DNA of 43,646 nt, taken from assembly GCF_014697615.1 (NCBI RefSeq), contig NZ_JACJSD010000055.1, positions 1 through 43,646 of the forward strand, in the 5' to 3' direction. The translations under genes and the position numbers were made by a program. The notes under the pieces were generated by a model. The model did no database searches, was not told the DNA's origin, and saw nothing but the letters and a program-made list of their open reading frames with translations. Shown here one piece after another: positions 9,144 through 14,248 of this stretch. Each line of letters begins with the position of its first letter. The stretch's first letter is position 1. The DNA comes from Nostoc sp. FACHB-280. Its GTDB lineage: Bacteria; Cyanobacteriota; Cyanobacteriia; Cyanobacteriales; Nostocaceae.

Positions 9144-10352
9144 ATGCTAAACTTTATCCTCATCGCTAACCCTGAAAATCGCCGTGTCGGTTTCCTCCAA
9201 CAAGCACTAACTCATTTCAACTTACCACCAGCCACGGTAGTAGATTACGCCGATTTAATTTCCGGTAAACAAAACCTCGCACAATTCAACGCACCCAACA
9301 CCATTATCCGCTTCGATTCTCCTGAGAAAAACTTTGATATTGATAAAGCCATCATCGCCGCAGGTTTCAATGTATCAGATAACGGACAACATCAACGCAT
9401 CAGTCCCGGCGAAGCTATGGAATTAGAATTCGATAAAGGACGCATCCTCTACCCGCGACAGTGGTATTTAGGCTGGCGATATCTCCTGCAAAAATGGGAA
9501 TCTCAACTTACTCCCCTCCAGGGTGAGTTTATGAACCATCCCCAAGACATTGCAGTGATGTTTGACAAACCAGCTTGTCACGAAAGATTCAGCCGTAACC
9601 ATATCCCCGTTCCTCATTCTCTTGGAAAAATTCACAATTACGAACACTTGCGCGAACAAATGCAAACCCAAGGAATAGAACGAGTATTCGTCAAACTTTC
9701 CCACGGTTCCGCCGCGTCTGGAGTTGTTGCTTATCGTGTAAATTCCCGTTTTGAATCAGCTATTACCACTGTCGAAAGAGTGCGAGAAAATGGCGAAACT
9801 CTACTTTACAACTCCCGGAAAATTAGTCACTATACTCGACATGAAGAAATCGCCGATATCATCAATATCTTAACAGCAGAAGGCATACAAGTTGAAGAAT
9901 GGCTACCCAAAGCACATTTACAAGGATGCGGTTTTGATGTGCGTGTGGTGGTGATTAATGGTGAAGCGCAACATATAGTTGTTCGCCTTGCTAAAAGTCC
10001 GATGACAAATTTACATTTAGGAAATGAACGGGGAGATACAGAGGAGTTTTTAGCAAAAATTGGTGTTGAGAATTGGGAGATGATGAAGCAAACTTGTGAA
10101 CAAGCAGCAGCGTTATTTCCTAATAGTTTATATTGCGGAGTTGATTTACTAATTTTACCAGATTGGAAAACTCACGCGATTTTAGAGATTAATGCTTTTG
10201 GCGATTTATTACCTGGTATTTTGTGGAATGGAATGGATACTTATACGAGTGAAGTTAAGGCGATTTTGGGAAGGGACAAGGGGGACAAGGGGGACAAGGG
10301 AGACAAGGTGGACAAGGTAGACAAGGGGGATTATTCGCCGATAATCCATTGA
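9144..10352 (+). CDS. STM4014-like ATP-grasp enzyme
   Basis: 402 residues from the ATG at 9144, which begins MLNFILIANPENRRVGFLQQ; an upstream frame extension would overlap the previous gene. The ATP-grasp fold shows VFVKLSHGSAASGVVAYRV (182-199, ATP-binding Lys184 and glycine loop), GFDVRVVVINGEAQHIVVR, and the metal-binding end CGVDLLILPD ... ILEINAFGDLLPG. Members of this fold join a carboxylate to an amine or thiol using ATP, so a ligation step, for example amino acid to peptide, is inferred; the substrate is unknown. After the conserved domain the protein ends in a tripeptide repeat tail (DKGDKGDKGDKVDKVDKGD) encoded by six 9-nt repeats, and its stop lies inside the oppositely oriented IVP gene. 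The natural C-terminus was therefore probably replaced. Confidence 0.85.
   Translation: MLNFILIANPENRRVGFLQQALTHFNLPPATVVDYADLISGKQNLAQFNAPNTIIRFDSPEKNFDIDKAIIAAGFNVSDNGQHQRISPGEAMELEFDKGRILYPRQWYLGWRYLLQKWESQLTPLQGEFMNHPQDIAVMFDKPACHERFSRNHIPVPHSLGKIHNYEHLREQMQTQGIERVFVKLSHGSAASGVVAYRVNSRFESAITTVERVRENGETLLYNSRKISHYTRHEEIADIINILTAEGIQVEEWLPKAHLQGCGFDVRVVVINGEAQHIVVRLAKSPMTNLHLGNERGDTEEFLAKIGVENWEMMKQTCEQAAALFPNSLYCGVDLLILPDWKTHAILEINAFGDLLPGILWNGMDTYTSEVKAILGRDKGDKGDKGDKVDKVDKGDYSPIIH
10276..10329 (+). repeat. Left 9-nt repeat array, six units ACAAGGNNG
   Basis: Six perfectly phased 9-base units: ACAAGGGGG twice, ACAAGGGAG, ACAAGGTGG, ACAAGGTAG, ACAAGGGGG. The array lies in frame in the 3' end of the ATP-grasp gene. 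Its reverse complement is the array at 10780-10874, so the two form inverted repeats around the IVP gene. Confidence 0.95.
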
Positions 10353-10717
10353 TTTGGATTGTTGATCATTTTGACTAAGCCTTTAAGGACTTGATTGTAG
10401 GTTTTATATAATTCTCTACCTTGCTGAATATCTATGTAGGAACATTTAACAGCAAATTTAATCCATACTTGAGTTTCCGCAGCTTCCGCCTCACAATCAC
10501 TAAGTTTAGCAATAAAAGCAGCTTTATATCTTCGTTTTCTCCAAGCCTCTGCTAAATTAGCACAAACAGAACGAGATGAACGACGAATCTGATCTGTTAA
10601 CGAATATTTTTCTTCTCGCGGGAATTTTTGCGACATCTCAAAAATTGTCATTGCTGTTTCAAACGCTAACTGAAATACAACCAAATCTTCATGACTATAA
10701 AATGACTTTTGATTCAC
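10331..10717 (-). CDS. Four-helix-bundle protein, 23S rRNA-IVP family
   Basis: 128 residues. The motifs YSHEDLVVFQLAFETAMTIF, YSLTDQIRRSSRSVCANLAE and KLSDCEAEAAETQVWIKFAV are the hallmarks of the IVP/S23 four-helix-bundle family. It was first known from intervening sequences of 23S rRNA genes and is related to the Avd protein of diversity-generating retroelements. No rRNA gene or reverse transcriptase is near. The gene lies antisense inside the STM401x set, between the STM4014-like and STM4013-like genes. Its last 22 bases overlap the STM4014-like 3' end. Inverted 9-nt repeat arrays sit immediately outside it on both sides. This layout suggests an inserted cassette. Function unknown; nucleic-acid binding is plausible for the family. 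Confidence 0.92.
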   Translation of the reverse strand: MNQKSFYSHEDLVVFQLAFETAMTIFEMSQKFPREEKYSLTDQIRRSSRSVCANLAEAWRKRRYKAAFIAKLSDCEAEAAETQVWIKFAVKCSYIDIQQGRELYKTYNQVLKGLVKMINNPNQWIIGE

Positions 10718-10779
10718 AAATCAAACACCCTTTACTCTCTCCTCTTATATTTCCCACTTTTTTCTTGATTTCTCACCCC

Positions 10780-10874
10780 CTTGTCTCTTCTGTCTACCTT
10801 GTCCCCCTTGTCTACCTTGTCTACCTTGTCTACCTTGTCTCCCCTGTCTCCCTTGTCCCCCTTCCCTTGTCTCC
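10780..10874 (-). repeat. Right 9-nt repeat array, inverted relative to the left one
   Basis: About ten units of CTTGTCNCC/CTTGTCTAC, for example CTACCTTGTCTACCTTGTCT, with a few one- or two-base irregularities. Its reverse complement matches the left array at 10276-10329. A plus-strand transcript could pair the two arms into a long GC-rich stem enclosing about 450 bases. The array ends 14 bases before the STM4013-like ATG, so it also replaces whatever spacer stood there. Confidence 0.93.
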
Positions 10875-10888
10875 CTCATCCCCCAACT

Positions 10889-11689
10889 ATGTTCAATATG
10901 AATGAAATCGTGGGAACTCACGACATCTTATTTATCACTCTAGACACACTGCGTTATGACGTAGCTAAAAAGTTATTTCTTGAAAAACGGACTCCTAATT
11001 TAGCAAAAGTTCTACCCAAAACGGGTTGGGAAGAACGACATTCACCAGGAAATTTCACTTATGCGGCGCATCATGCTTTTTTCGCTGGCTTTTTACCTAC
11101 TCCGATAACACCAGGAATTCACCCCCGAATTTTTGCTTTAGGATTTGAAGGAAGTACCACCACAACTGATAAAACTTGTGTGTTAGATGGTTCAAATATT
11201 GTTAGCGGATTAGCTGCAAAGGGATATCATACAGTTTGCATTGGTGGTGTAGGTTTTTTCAACAAACGCAATCCTTTAGGTAATGTATTTCCTTCGATGT
11301 TTGCTGAAAGTTACTGGAGTCCAGAATTAGGTGTTACTCACCCCAAATCTACAGAAAATCAAATAAATCTGGCGCGAGAGATTTTAGAAAAAACGCCAAA
11401 TCATCAACGCCTATTTTTATTTATAAATATTTCCGCTTTGCATCAGCCAAATTATTTTTACCTTCCTAATCCAAAGGATAAAATCGACACCATTGAATCT
11501 CACGCCGCAGCTTTGGAATATGTAGATAGTCAATTAGCAAAACTCTGGAATATTATACGCCAAAGACATTCTACATTTTGCATTCTCTGTTCTGACCACG
11601 GGACAACTTATGGTGAAGATGGTTACACTGGACATCGACTCAGCCATCCCGTTGTTTGGACTGTTCCATATACAGAGTTTATTTTATGA
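10889..11689 (+). CDS. STM4013-like hydrolase (alkaline phosphatase/sulfatase superfamily)
   Basis: 266 residues from the ATG at 10889 (MFNMNEIVGTHD); the longer frame upstream is just translated repeat. The N-terminal strand ILFITLDTLRYD (13-24) carries the first metal-ligand Asp, SPGNFTYAAHHAFF (52-65) probably carries the nucleophile (Thr57), and FCILCSDHGTTYGEDGYTGH near residue 236 carries the late metal-binding Asp-His pair. This is the STM4013/SEN3800 family pattern. It is presumably a soluble, cytoplasmic metal-dependent hydrolase acting on a phosphate or sulfate ester, with unknown substrate. In the set it precedes the STM4012-like radical SAM gene by 100 bases that contain a CTCTGCGTGAAAC-type repeat. 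Confidence 0.87.
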   Translation: MFNMNEIVGTHDILFITLDTLRYDVAKKLFLEKRTPNLAKVLPKTGWEERHSPGNFTYAAHHAFFAGFLPTPITPGIHPRIFALGFEGSTTTTDKTCVLDGSNIVSGLAAKGYHTVCIGGVGFFNKRNPLGNVFPSMFAESYWSPELGVTHPKSTENQINLAREILEKTPNHQRLFLFINISALHQPNYFYLPNPKDKIDTIESHAAALEYVDSQLAKLWNIIRQRHSTFCILCSDHGTTYGEDGYTGHRLSHPVVWTVPYTEFIL

Positions 11690-11789: not shown

Positions 11790-13181
11790 ATGTTAACCAT
11801 CCAAAATCTAAAATCTAAAATTTCTCAGTCTCCCTATCAAGCATACGTTTATTCTTACCCCCACAAAACAGCTTATCGTCCTTTAACGCCGCCGATATAT
11901 CTCCCCGAACTTTGGACGCAGCAAGATAGACAAGCCTTATTTCTTTATATACATATACCGTTTTGTGAAATGCGTTGTGGTTTCTGCAATTTGTTTACCA
12001 CAGTCAGCCACAATGAAGATTTTATCAGTCAATATGTCCGCACATTACAGCGACAGGCGCAACGGATGAAAGCGGTGTTGGGTGATGCGTCATTTGCGAG
12101 GTTCGCTATTGGTGGGGGAACTCCGACTCAGTTAACCATTCAGCATCTTGCAACTGTTCTTGATATTGCTGAAAATACGATGGGTGCAAAGTTACAGGAA
12201 ATTCCGATTTCTGTGGAAGTTTCACCAGAAACCGCAACTGAAGAAAAGTTAAAGTTGTTGCGATCGCACTCCGTTGACCGTGTTAGTATTGGTGTCCAAA
12301 GTTTCATTGAGTCGGAAGTCTTAGCAACCCAGCGTCGTCAATCTAATACTCAAGTAGAAGCCGCATTGACAAGAATAAAACAAGCTGGATTTCCCACTTT
12401 GAATATTGACCTGATTTACGGTTTACCCGGTCAAACCGTCAATACTTGGTTGCAATCAATACATAGTGCTTTGCGCTTTCAACCAGAGGAAATTTATCTA
12501 TATCCCTTGTATGTACGGCCGTTAACAGCTTTGGGACGCACAGATAAAGAATGGGACGACATTCGTTTAGCTTGTTACCGCCAAGGGCGATCGCTCCTGT
12601 TATCTCAAGGGTATACTCAAGTATCGATGCGGATGTTTCGACAAGGGGGACAAGGGGGACAAGGTAGCAATTTTTCTCCCTTGTCTCCCCCCTCTCCCTT
12701 GTCTCCCCCCTCTCCCCTGTCTCCCTCATCTCCCGTCTACTGCTGTCAAGCCGACGGTATGATTGGTTTAGGTTGCGGCGCACGTTCTTACACCAATACT
12801 CTGCACTATTCTAATGAGTATGCGGTGGGTGCAAAGGGAATCAGCGAGATTTTGCAAGCATATATTCAAACAGCCGATGAGTTATTTGAATACGCGCACT
12901 ATGGTTTTCAACTAGATGCAGAAGAACAACGTCGGCGATATATTTTATTATCTTTACTTTCTGATGAAGGATTAAATTTCGTTAATTATCGCCAGGAATT
13001 TGCTAGTGAAGTAGACGCTGATTTTCCCGAACTTTCAGAATTGCTAATTTTAAATTTGGCGATAAAAGATGAAGATAGTTTTCACTTAACTGAATTTGGT
13101 ATTGAACGTTCTGATACTATCGGCGCGTGGTTGTTTTCTGAAAAAGTTCAGGAATTAATGCAAGGTTATGAGTTGAAATAG
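11790..13181 (+). CDS. STM4012-like radical SAM protein (HemN/HemW type)
   Basis: 463 residues from the ATG at 11790, which gives MLTIQNLKSKISQSPYQAYV; the open frame upstream runs through the end of the previous gene. The [4Fe-4S] motif is HIPFCEMRCGFCNLF, with Cys59, Cys63 and Cys66 in CxxxCxxC spacing, followed by the SAM-binding GGGTPT and the HemN-like RVSIGVQSF and NIDLIYGLPGQ. The C-terminal HemN-like domain includes DGMIGLGCGARSYT. Between GYTQVSMRMF and that region is a translated repeat insert of about 33 residues (GGQGSNFSPLSPPSPLSPPS) that looks foreign. It is unlikely to be the haem enzyme; a radical modification step within the STM401x set is inferred. Confidence 0.9.
   Translation: MLTIQNLKSKISQSPYQAYVYSYPHKTAYRPLTPPIYLPELWTQQDRQALFLYIHIPFCEMRCGFCNLFTTVSHNEDFISQYVRTLQRQAQRMKAVLGDASFARFAIGGGTPTQLTIQHLATVLDIAENTMGAKLQEIPISVEVSPETATEEKLKLLRSHSVDRVSIGVQSFIESEVLATQRRQSNTQVEAALTRIKQAGFPTLNIDLIYGLPGQTVNTWLQSIHSALRFQPEEIYLYPLYVRPLTALGRTDKEWDDIRLACYRQGRSLLLSQGYTQVSMRMFRQGGQGGQGSNFSPLSPPSPLSPPSPLSPSSPVYCCQADGMIGLGCGARSYTNTLHYSNEYAVGAKGISEILQAYIQTADELFEYAHYGFQLDAEEQRRRYILLSLLSDEGLNFVNYRQEFASEVDADFPELSELLILNLAIKDEDSFHLTEFGIERSDTIGAWLFSEKVQELMQGYELK
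12641..12740. repeat. 9-nt repeat hairpin inserted in frame in the STM4012-like gene
   Basis: Three units in one orientation (ACAAGGGGG, ACAAGGGGG, ACAAGGTAG) are followed after a short spacer by units in the other (CTCCCTTGTCTCCCCCCTCT and so on, with an 18-base period) down to CCCGTCTAC. It adds about 33 codons without breaking the frame. The two halves can pair. Confidence 0.92.
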
Positions 13182-13201: not shown

Positions 13202-14248
13202 ATGTTGGCAATTGTGATGAGTGGAGAAGACTTGAGTGATAAATATTTCTATTGGTGGTGTTACTTTGCAATTACTTGGTTAATGCTGGGTGTGCTATTA
13301 GAGATTTTAGCAGATTCTCGTGGACGCATACACTACGCAGCAGAAAAAGGAGATGTTGAAAAAATTAAAAAGCTGTTAGATAAGGGTGTAGATCCGAATT
13401 TCCGTAAAATGATTAATAGTCCCACACCAATTTATTATGCGGCTGCACAAGGACACAGAGAAATTGTAGAAATTTTAATTAGATATGGTGCGGATGTTAA
13501 TCTAGGAATTGAAGAAGATGATACTTTTAATCCTCTTCTAGCTGCAACAATTAACCAGCATCACGATGTCATAGAAGCACTAATACAGCATGGTGCAATA
13601 GTGGGAGTTCATTTAGCGGCTTTTTATGGAGATATAGATACAATCAGAGCCTACTTATCTCAAGGAGGTAACATTCACAAAAGATGTAATTCGGGTTTAT
13701 CATTACTCCATTTAGCATCACTTAATGGACAAAGAGATACTGTAGAATTTTTAATAGAAAATAATGCAGATCATAATGTTAAAGATAGCAAGGGTGAAAC
13801 TCCATTACGTAAGGCTGTAAAGAGAGATCACTGTTCTGTAGTGGAATTCATGATTGATAGAGGCAAAGATTTTCTCAATGCTGACGAAAAAATAGCCTTG
13901 CTACATTATGCAGCATCTGATAACAGTACAGAAGTTGCAAAATTTTTGGTATTAATAGGTGAAGATGTAAATACACAAATAAATACAGGAACTCCTTTGC
14001 ATCATGCGGCTGCAAACAACAGTAGAGAAGTTGCAGAACTTTTGATATCAAATGGTGCAGAAATGGATATTTTAGATAGGTCTTTCGGACAAGCACCATT
14101 GCATAGAGCAATTGAATGGGGAAATTTAGAAGTAGTAGAGTTACTCGCTACTAATGGAGCAAATATCAATAAAATATCTCGTTCAGGTGAATCTCCTCTT
14201 CACATTGCATTAAACAAATATAACAATTCTATTTTTAATAATAAATGA
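13202..14248 (+). CDS. Ankyrin-repeat protein with N-terminal membrane segment
   Basis: 348 residues. An aromatic hydrophobic segment (about 16-38, YFYWWCYFAITWLMLGVLLE) suggests a membrane anchor. About eight to nine ankyrin repeats follow, e.g. TPIYYAAAQGHREIVEILIR and TPLHHAAANNSREVAELLIS. The frame is stopped by TGA at 14246-14248, yet the next 23 codons in the same frame, to TAA at 14318-14320, read LYKEIINTLQEYGAIDYNYG, a natural end of an ankyrin repeat. So the annotated end may be a recent nonsense change. The gene looks more AT-rich than its neighbours and splits the STM4012-like and STM4011-like genes, so it may be a later arrival. Protein binding is the expected role. Confidence 0.88.
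   Translation: MLAIVMSGEDLSDKYFYWWCYFAITWLMLGVLLEILADSRGRIHYAAEKGDVEKIKKLLDKGVDPNFRKMINSPTPIYYAAAQGHREIVEILIRYGADVNLGIEEDDTFNPLLAATINQHHDVIEALIQHGAIVGVHLAAFYGDIDTIRAYLSQGGNIHKRCNSGLSLLHLASLNGQRDTVEFLIENNADHNVKDSKGETPLRKAVKRDHCSVVEFMIDRGKDFLNADEKIALLHYAASDNSTEVAKFLVLIGEDVNTQINTGTPLHHAAANNSREVAELLISNGAEMDILDRSFGQAPLHRAIEWGNLEVVELLATNGANINKISRSGESPLHIALNKYNNSIFNNK

Follow-up and report, generated by a model that had tools for sequence, protein, structure and literature searches.

What is a gene for a four-helix-bundle protein doing in antisense, between two mirror-image arrays of short tandem repeats, in the midst of a set of protein genes? The question is raised by a locus in the window, by which we mean the whole 43,646-nucleotide stretch of Nostoc sp. 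FACHB-280 DNA analysed here, across which a profile search finds genes of the STM4015, STM4014, STM4013, STM4012 and STM4011 families. Our analysis indicates that positions 10276-10875 are probably a single copy of a dispersed mobile element, a small cassette in which an IVP gene lies between inverted arms made of 7- to 9-nt tandem repeats.

The locus

The features on which the argument rests are the following.

9144..10352, + strand: STM4014-family gene (NF038074, 440 bits), whose C-terminus reads into the left arm
10276..10329, + strand: left arm, six ACAAGGNNG units, the G-rich strand pointing toward the gene
10331..10717, - strand: IVP gene, 128 amino acids, four-helix-bundle protein (PF05635 / TIGR02436)
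10718..10775, no strand: leader, from the IVP start to the right arm
10776..10875, - strand: right arm, about ten units of the CNNCCTTGT type, seven of them strict, an inverted copy of the left arm
10889..11689, + strand: STM4013/SEN3800-family gene (NF038075, 432 bits)
12641..12734, + strand: gene-less hairpin of the ACAAGG repeat family, in frame within the STM4012 gene

A preliminary description of the window had placed an antisense IVP gene between inverted 9-nt arrays, six units on the left and about ten on the right, splitting the STM4014 and STM4013 genes. This layout holds: unit positions, TRF and profiles agree on the arrays and the gene, and NF038074 and NF038075 match on either side. 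The left array, 10276-10329, contains ACAAGGNNG six times without a mismatch and in 9-nt register (TRF: 10273-10330, period 9, 6.4 copies), while the strict CNNCCTTGT units of the right array start at 10776, 10794, 10803, 10812, 10821, 10830 and 10848; there TRF finds 9.6 copies at 10778-10863, an extra array row extends to 10876, and counting degenerate units brings the number to about ten. The IVP stop codon adjoins the left arm. The STM4014 frame runs on into the left array (AILGRDKGDKGDKGDK...) up to a stop at 10352, sharing its last 22 nt with the IVP 3' end. In a relative (G006) STM4014 has a different tail there and runs directly up to STM4013. On the other side the right array ends about 14 nt upstream of the STM4013 ATG at 10889.

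To score arms we aligned the left flank locally either with the reverse complement of the right flank (inverted score) or with the right flank as is (direct score) and took the best match, using flanks of 350 nt in the gene controls and up to 400 nt elsewhere; an inverted match of at least 30 was counted as arms. The flanks of the window IVP gene score 93 inverted versus 21 direct. The transcript stem that had been proposed is also predicted by folding of the + strand, which yields a long near-perfect stem with the IVP gene in its loop (MFE -197.8; z -10.8 from 20 shuffles). Other arrays, shorter or mixed, occur elsewhere in the window, for example within the STM4012 gene (12641-12734).

The protein itself is a clear family member, scoring 102.8 bits against PF05635 (cut-off 33.8) and 97.2 bits against TIGR02436 (cut-off 24). 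It is basic (pI 9.0), and its solved relatives, 2rld and 2gsc, have five chains per entry. Comparison of IVP pairs at distinct loci shows a protein under purifying selection: dN/dS is 0.03, 0.04, 0.12, 0.15 and 0.25 in five of seven pairs; the remaining two, which are the least diverged and have few changes, give 0.51 and 0.53. We found no recombinase, no reverse transcriptase and no clean target-site duplication in the cassette, and the IVP protein, which is the sole family-matched ORF between the window arms, matches no transposase. Nor does the window IVP match phages or the anti-phage defence library, and Rfam has no match in the window at gathering scores.

Inverted arms at other IVP genes

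Are such arms peculiar to this locus? Among 102 different IVP ORFs from the same genome and its relatives, inverted scores reach at least 30 in 76 and at least 40 in 63, as against 12 and 5 for direct scores and 8% when flanks are paired across loci. The other 26 have no scored arms, and seven of these are copies of one insertion sequence in genome G028. For homologues of the window gene, 24 of the 30 that have loci (30 among the 53 matches listed) reach an inverted score of 30. Named close relatives give at least 30 inverted in 64 of 69 loci and direct in 1 of 69; this set goes back to a query with the window protein, from whose 341 candidates 80 loci were fetched, 69 of them usable and 11 at contig edges, and it spans Nostoc, Calothrix, Laspinema, Symploca, Moorena, Okeania, Crocosphaera and others. 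In Chloroflexota, with phylum taken from taxonomy and 11 of the 40 loci coming from one Anaerolineales MAG, 25 of 40 loci reach at least 30 inverted and 7 of 40 direct, with a cross-locus null of 1.9%. Plasmid loci, hand-chosen from the matches, have inverted arms in 5 of 5 cases, and in 3 of 3 for Azospirillum, Gemmatirosa and Riemerella; the Gemmatirosa plasmid locus scores 61 inverted versus 52 direct. The 102 and the 40 are mostly the higher-scoring fetched matches rather than full match lists. The counts are not additive, since the sets share members: the IVP DNA of 11 among the 69 named loci occurs in L001-L156 as well, and the same locus can carry several labels (L159 = G041/L128, L209 = L136, L170 = L129, L226 = L357).

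The simplest dismissal of this pattern would be coincidence, arrays of many different units being frequent between genes in the genomes of Nostoc relatives. Control genes speak decisively against it. They come from the stretches with IVP genes, from the window and from another 60 stretches of 20 kb. Among 1271 non-IVP genes, 33 have an inverted score of at least 30, versus 28 of 42 IVP genes; the figure is 5 of 463 for size-matched genes and 14 of 391 for genes with both gaps of at least 100 nt, and a smaller first control on the same stretches gave 16 of 458. We rely on the unrestricted control, because open frames within the arrays count as neighbours and the 100-nt gap filter therefore keeps only three IVP genes. 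Moreover, the matches are inverted rather than direct. Chance arrays are thus ruled out as an explanation, and the probability we would leave to them is negligible. In the genomes compared, inverted short-repeat arms are seen as what looks like a family-wide rule for IVP genes in Cyanobacteriota and Chloroflexota, with single loci in three further phyla.

The particular sequence of the arms is another matter. The preliminary description had predicted ACAAGGNNG arms at IVP genes in general, and this part of it fails already within the genome of the window. That genome has five PF05635 genes, and an ACAAGG array lies within 1.5 kb of only one of them, so that arms of the ACAAGG type are ruled out as a rule (1 of 5). 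The inverted flank scores of the five are 93, 49, 45, 35 and 18; three of the four other genes have inverted arrays of other units and one has none. At one of them, L001, the inverted score of 49 is accompanied by a direct score of 41, which means that its arrays repeat head to tail as well.

Arms follow the gene

Within one copy both arms have a common unit, and the units vary between lineages. In most copies the purine-rich strand reads inward on both sides. If gene and arms form a single element, we would look for copies that are alike from array to array and different outside, and this is seen in five copies with GTGTGGG arms, whose IVP proteins are 94-99% identical: their DNA alignment spans array, gene and array and stops there. 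Two of the five, with 97% identity in their DNA, are in one genome, that of Nostoc spongiaeforme FACHB-130 (G005). Nine of the ten pairs of these copies have no common flanking ORF; in L171 and L181 a related ORF (46% identical) lies on opposite sides.

Over longer evolutionary distances the arm unit follows the protein. Of the 64 armed named loci, 52 have long flanks, and among these we compared pairs sharing no flanking ORF. All 39 pairs at 85-90% protein identity have the arm unit in common, as do 94% of the 49 pairs above 90%, but only 11% of 481 pairs at 70-75% and 4% of 177 pairs at 65-70%. A Mantel test of arm unit against IVP protein gives 0.64 for the 52 named loci, with a null maximum of 0.17 in 2000 permutations; a wider set of 70 loci with scores of at least 35 gives 0.54 with a null maximum of 0.12. 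In this wider set the nearest protein neighbour at another locus has the same unit in 44 of 70 cases (5.1 expected). On a tree of 70 IVP proteins, unit labels need 11 changes versus 29.7 when shuffled. The tree count has to be read with its conditions, namely that 40 of 63 inner branches are unresolved, that the labels were picked after the arms had been seen and that five armed loci are labelled 'other'; the Mantel tests are label-free. The L002 group of common sites (L002 and six others) shows arm matching weakly, at 51.7 within versus 39.8 between copies.

Homology from array to array, together with a repeat unit that tracks the IVP tree, implies that the gene and its arms travel as one unit. 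A package of gene and repeats found at unrelated places suggests a small mobile element that lacks a known moving enzyme. As for marks of insertion, one candidate target-site duplication, a near-repeat of about 15 nt, lies outside both arms of L171, and none was seen by eye at L170.

Repeat families with and without the gene

Arrays of the kind that form the window arms are abundant in their own right. A strict three-unit ACAAGG pattern occurs 180 times in the genome of the window, and its reversed control 0 times. Since this array family is genome-wide, arrays alone are not special; it is the bracketing of an IVP gene that is special. In 439 kb of sequence from this genome, selected for holding arrays, there are 43 ACAAGG arrays. 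A partner facing inward was found for 22 of them, each member of a pair being included in the count, and for 19 this partner lies no more than 100 nt away; outward-facing partners are absent. Among 15 ACAAGG hairpins inspected, the loop is AAA(G/T)ATTGCT in 5 and departs from it at one or two positions in another 4. Inward pairing and a recurrent loop indicate that these hairpins form a separate dispersed family, and the IVP cassette resembles such a hairpin with a gene in its loop.

Could the IVP protein be what disperses these hairpins, much as a REPIN/RAYT pair would work, with the gene-less hairpins of each unit depending on the IVP copy as the autonomous member? Within the genus, in a set of 11 genomes, each repeat family indeed peaks in a genome with the matching IVP: ACAAGG arrays number 180 in G000 versus 51, 42, 6, 1 and, in six others, 0, and GTGTGGG arrays number 46 in G005 versus 0 in the ten others. 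Across genomes, however, this relation fails. ACAAGG arrays are plentiful in G017 (689), G014 (201), G098 (156), G077 (125) and G062 (56), yet none of these five has a window-type IVP at E<=1e-30, and the IVP genes examined in them (20 of 26 places, and others) have no ACAAGG arms; at L281 of G017, ACAAGG hexamers are confined to the wider flank. Over 100 genomes, window-type IVP is as common without ACAAGG arrays (26 of 68) as with them (14 of 32). G046 has 50 GTGTGGG arrays with no matching IVP seen. Array density is unrelated to IVP number in 14 genomes (Spearman -0.03; the densest of them, G040, has no IVP), a weak test in view of the small sample of 60 kb per genome and 20 kb for G028. 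The simple model in which IVP spreads its own repeat is therefore rejected, in spite of its support within the genus, and a REPIN/RAYT-like pair is in our judgement distinctly improbable. Repeat-rich genomes that lack a matching IVP imply that arrays spread or persist without the matching gene, or else that the gene was lost early.

Occupied and empty sites

Related sites with and without the cassette bear on whether the arms arrive with the gene. At site A (L182 of G005), loci from ten members of the genus contain no IVP DNA. Nine of these relatives (L239-L247) lack this kind of array, although at L242 there is a hairpin built of a different unit. In the tenth, G000 (L238), two repeat units stand where the cassette would be. 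Site B (L170 of G005) is different. There G000, with flanks 96% identical, carries a gene-less hairpin of the matching unit with a 17-nt loop, and G006 carries a hairpin with a different unit; for seven other relatives the match is confined to the right flank, with remnants or single arrays of other units in 4 of the 5 inspected. Comparison of G005 with G000 at site B could equally mean that the gene was lost from a hairpin or that it was added to a pre-existing one.

The second of these possibilities leads to the reading that we take most seriously against our own, in which the arms are the target and IVP genes insert into the loops of dispersed short-repeat hairpins that were already there. 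The frequency of inward ACAAGG hairpins, with their recurrent loop and no outward pairs, favours it, as do the hairpin without IVP in G000 and with IVP in G005 at site B and the independence of array density from IVP number. It does not readily explain why the arm unit tracks the IVP tree at different loci or why copies are homologous through both arrays, and random targeting of hairpins would rather yield the commonest repeat family of the host. Site A comes near to a young insertion that brought its arms, since nine relatives have no array of its unit, although one of them, L242, has a hairpin with a different unit and G000 has two units of the site A repeat. We regard arms as target as possible but doubtful.

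The STM4014-STM4013 junction offers a third comparison. In G006 the STM4014 gene directly precedes STM4013, in G005 another ORF lies between them, and in L157, L158 and the window there is an antisense IVP gene with ACAAGG arms. The preliminary description had counted arrays at this junction in strains lacking IVP against a cassette; the junction of G006 has neither gene nor array. In L159 (G041) the junction holds the nearest other IVP in sense orientation, between GAGAGKGGG arms. These arms match each other at 95, while the left flank of L159 matches the right flanks of the others only at 19-30; the reverse comparison, at 47-56, is less clear. Arms that match each other and not those of the others imply that both arms can change together and yet stay mirror copies, and a sense IVP at a junction that has an antisense IVP in the window implies that the gene can flip.

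Such a flip raises the possibility of a resident host gene in an invertible switch, where recombination between the arms would turn the IVP gene around and so regulate either IVP or the operon. The opposite orientations in L159 and the window lineage, whose IVPs are nearest in the tree, fit this idea, and several IVP loci do have common neighbours across genomes. Against it stand the copies at different loci and the relatives that lack the gene at this same junction, and the single inversion seen is one in which the arms changed too. A resident switch is, we believe, very improbable.

Discussion

The reading that we prefer, a mobile cassette of an IVP gene with its inverted arms, was also the first reading of this locus, which had likened the cassette to the intervening sequences (IVS) of 23S rRNA. 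That part of it has stood up, through copies homologous from array to array at different sites, arm units that track the IVP tree, IVP-free sites in relatives and the control genes; its expectation that the arms would as a rule be made of ACAAGGNNG has not.

How might such a cassette move? The arms may pair, in the transcript or in single-stranded DNA, into a long stem with the IVP gene in its loop. The basic IVP oligomer could then bind the stem or loop of its own cassette and help to copy or insert it with enzymes supplied in trans. As the cassette contains no recombinase, strand transfer must come from elsewhere, and host replication or repair, a reverse transcriptase acting in trans, or a transposase as in the insertion sequence of G028 would be candidate sources. 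Recombination between the arms would flip the gene, as the opposite orientation in L159 suggests. The cassette would be an equivalent of the 23S rRNA intervening sequence that sits between protein genes.

The likeness to that element is close. In the account of PMC4990558, the 23S rRNA IVS has an S23p/IVP ORF flanked by terminal inverted repeats that pair into a stem, is excised by RNase III and is called a selfish element for which an origin from mobile elements is suggested; known since 1990, it was still said in 2016 to be of unclear function and origin. The window cassette likewise has an IVP ORF within inverted arms and a predicted stem. Unlike the IVS, it lies between STM4014 and STM4013, outside rRNA, and is thus not itself a 23S rRNA IVS; its arms, moreover, are tandem 7-9-nt units that vary between lineages, and several copies can occur per genome between protein genes.

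Other known systems share single traits with the cassette. The gene-less ACAAGG hairpins dispersed in the genome of the window resemble REPINs, described in PMC3116915 as dispersed hairpins with a linked gene for the RAYT transposase. The cassette differs from these in having neither RAYT nor any other transposase, in that its gene encodes a helix bundle, and in that hairpin number tracks the gene within the genus and not across genomes. Avd of the diversity-generating retroelements is related to IVP by profile, below cut-off (NF033474 34 bits, PF22296 31 bits), but unlike in those elements no reverse transcriptase is present among the seven neighbouring proteins scanned. An insertion sequence with a passenger gene is exemplified by the element of G028, which is about 1.9 kb long, has 85-bp ends, carries an IVP gene and is present in seven copies; the arms of the usual IVP cassettes, in contrast, enclose no transposase. 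Cyanobacterial genomes also contain dispersed short tandem units, familiar as STRR arrays, and no agent is known to us that would spread such arrays. Unlike STRR arrays, the arms described here are inverted around one gene family and include 8- and 9-nt units besides those of 7. STRR arrays have been used for fingerprinting (PMC5088731). A search by titles and the beginnings of abstracts turned up no paper joining IVP genes with short-repeat arms; as the subscription literature was mostly beyond its reach, we make no claim of priority.

More generally, IVP genes might mark cassettes that occur across phyla, have no transposase and move as hairpin RNA or single-stranded DNA. An Avd-like IVP oligomer would grip the stem and enlist, in trans, either a reverse transcriptase or the machinery of replication; switching of templates on the stem would both lengthen the arms and keep them mirrored. 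The 23S IVS would then be those members that rRNA tolerates, and many gene-less hairpins of cyanobacteria would be deletion products. Taken as a whole this wider picture is speculative, and we think it unlikely to hold in full.

The link between IVP genes and their arms, with gene and arms as one unit, makes both the origin of the IVS and the spread of short tandem arrays testable. It supplies related sites with and without the cassette and, for binding assays, IVP proteins together with the repeats that match them.

Cassette ends and carriers of IVP genes

In L171, one of five IVP copies with GTGTGGG arms, GAATTTCTCACTYRT is present near-identically immediately outside the left arm and immediately outside the right arm, and this flanking pair may possibly be a target-site duplication. 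At another locus, recorded both as L136 and as L209, the inverted match runs about 30 nt past the arrays into non-repeated sequence and there resembles true terminal inverted repeats. IVP genes are also carried by an insertion sequence of about 1.9 kb in the relative G028, where its seven copies (L067-L073) have 85-bp inverted ends, a transposase that by eye resembles that of ISL3, and a single one-sided GGGAACA array beside the IVP gene.

Arrays also occur apart from the gene: in G040, which belongs to the same family as the window's genome, short tandem arrays (L306-L308) are the densest among 14 sampled genomes, and our search for IVP matches returned none in that genome.

A window-type IVP with 69% identity lies at L226 (also L357) in a metagenome-assembled genome titled Anaerolineales, reflecting either horizontal transfer or contamination; that assembly holds ten further IVP matches.

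Repeats and genes among the STM genes

12641-12734: ACAAGG-type repeat hairpin, in frame, inside the STM4012 radical-SAM gene
13202-14248: ankyrin-repeat gene between STM4012 and STM4011

In Nostoc spongiaeforme FACHB-130 (G005, L007), an ORF judged by eye to be a second STM4015 look-alike lies between STM4014 and STM4013, the junction that the IVP cassette occupies in the window.

At the STM4012 hairpin position two of six relatives could be compared completely: L157, with IVP in the window's orientation and ACAAGG arms, has a mixed array longer than the window's, and G006, with STM4014 directly before STM4013, has a shorter one. Such differing arrays at a single position indicate that the STM4012 coding sequence tolerates repeat inserts that vary.
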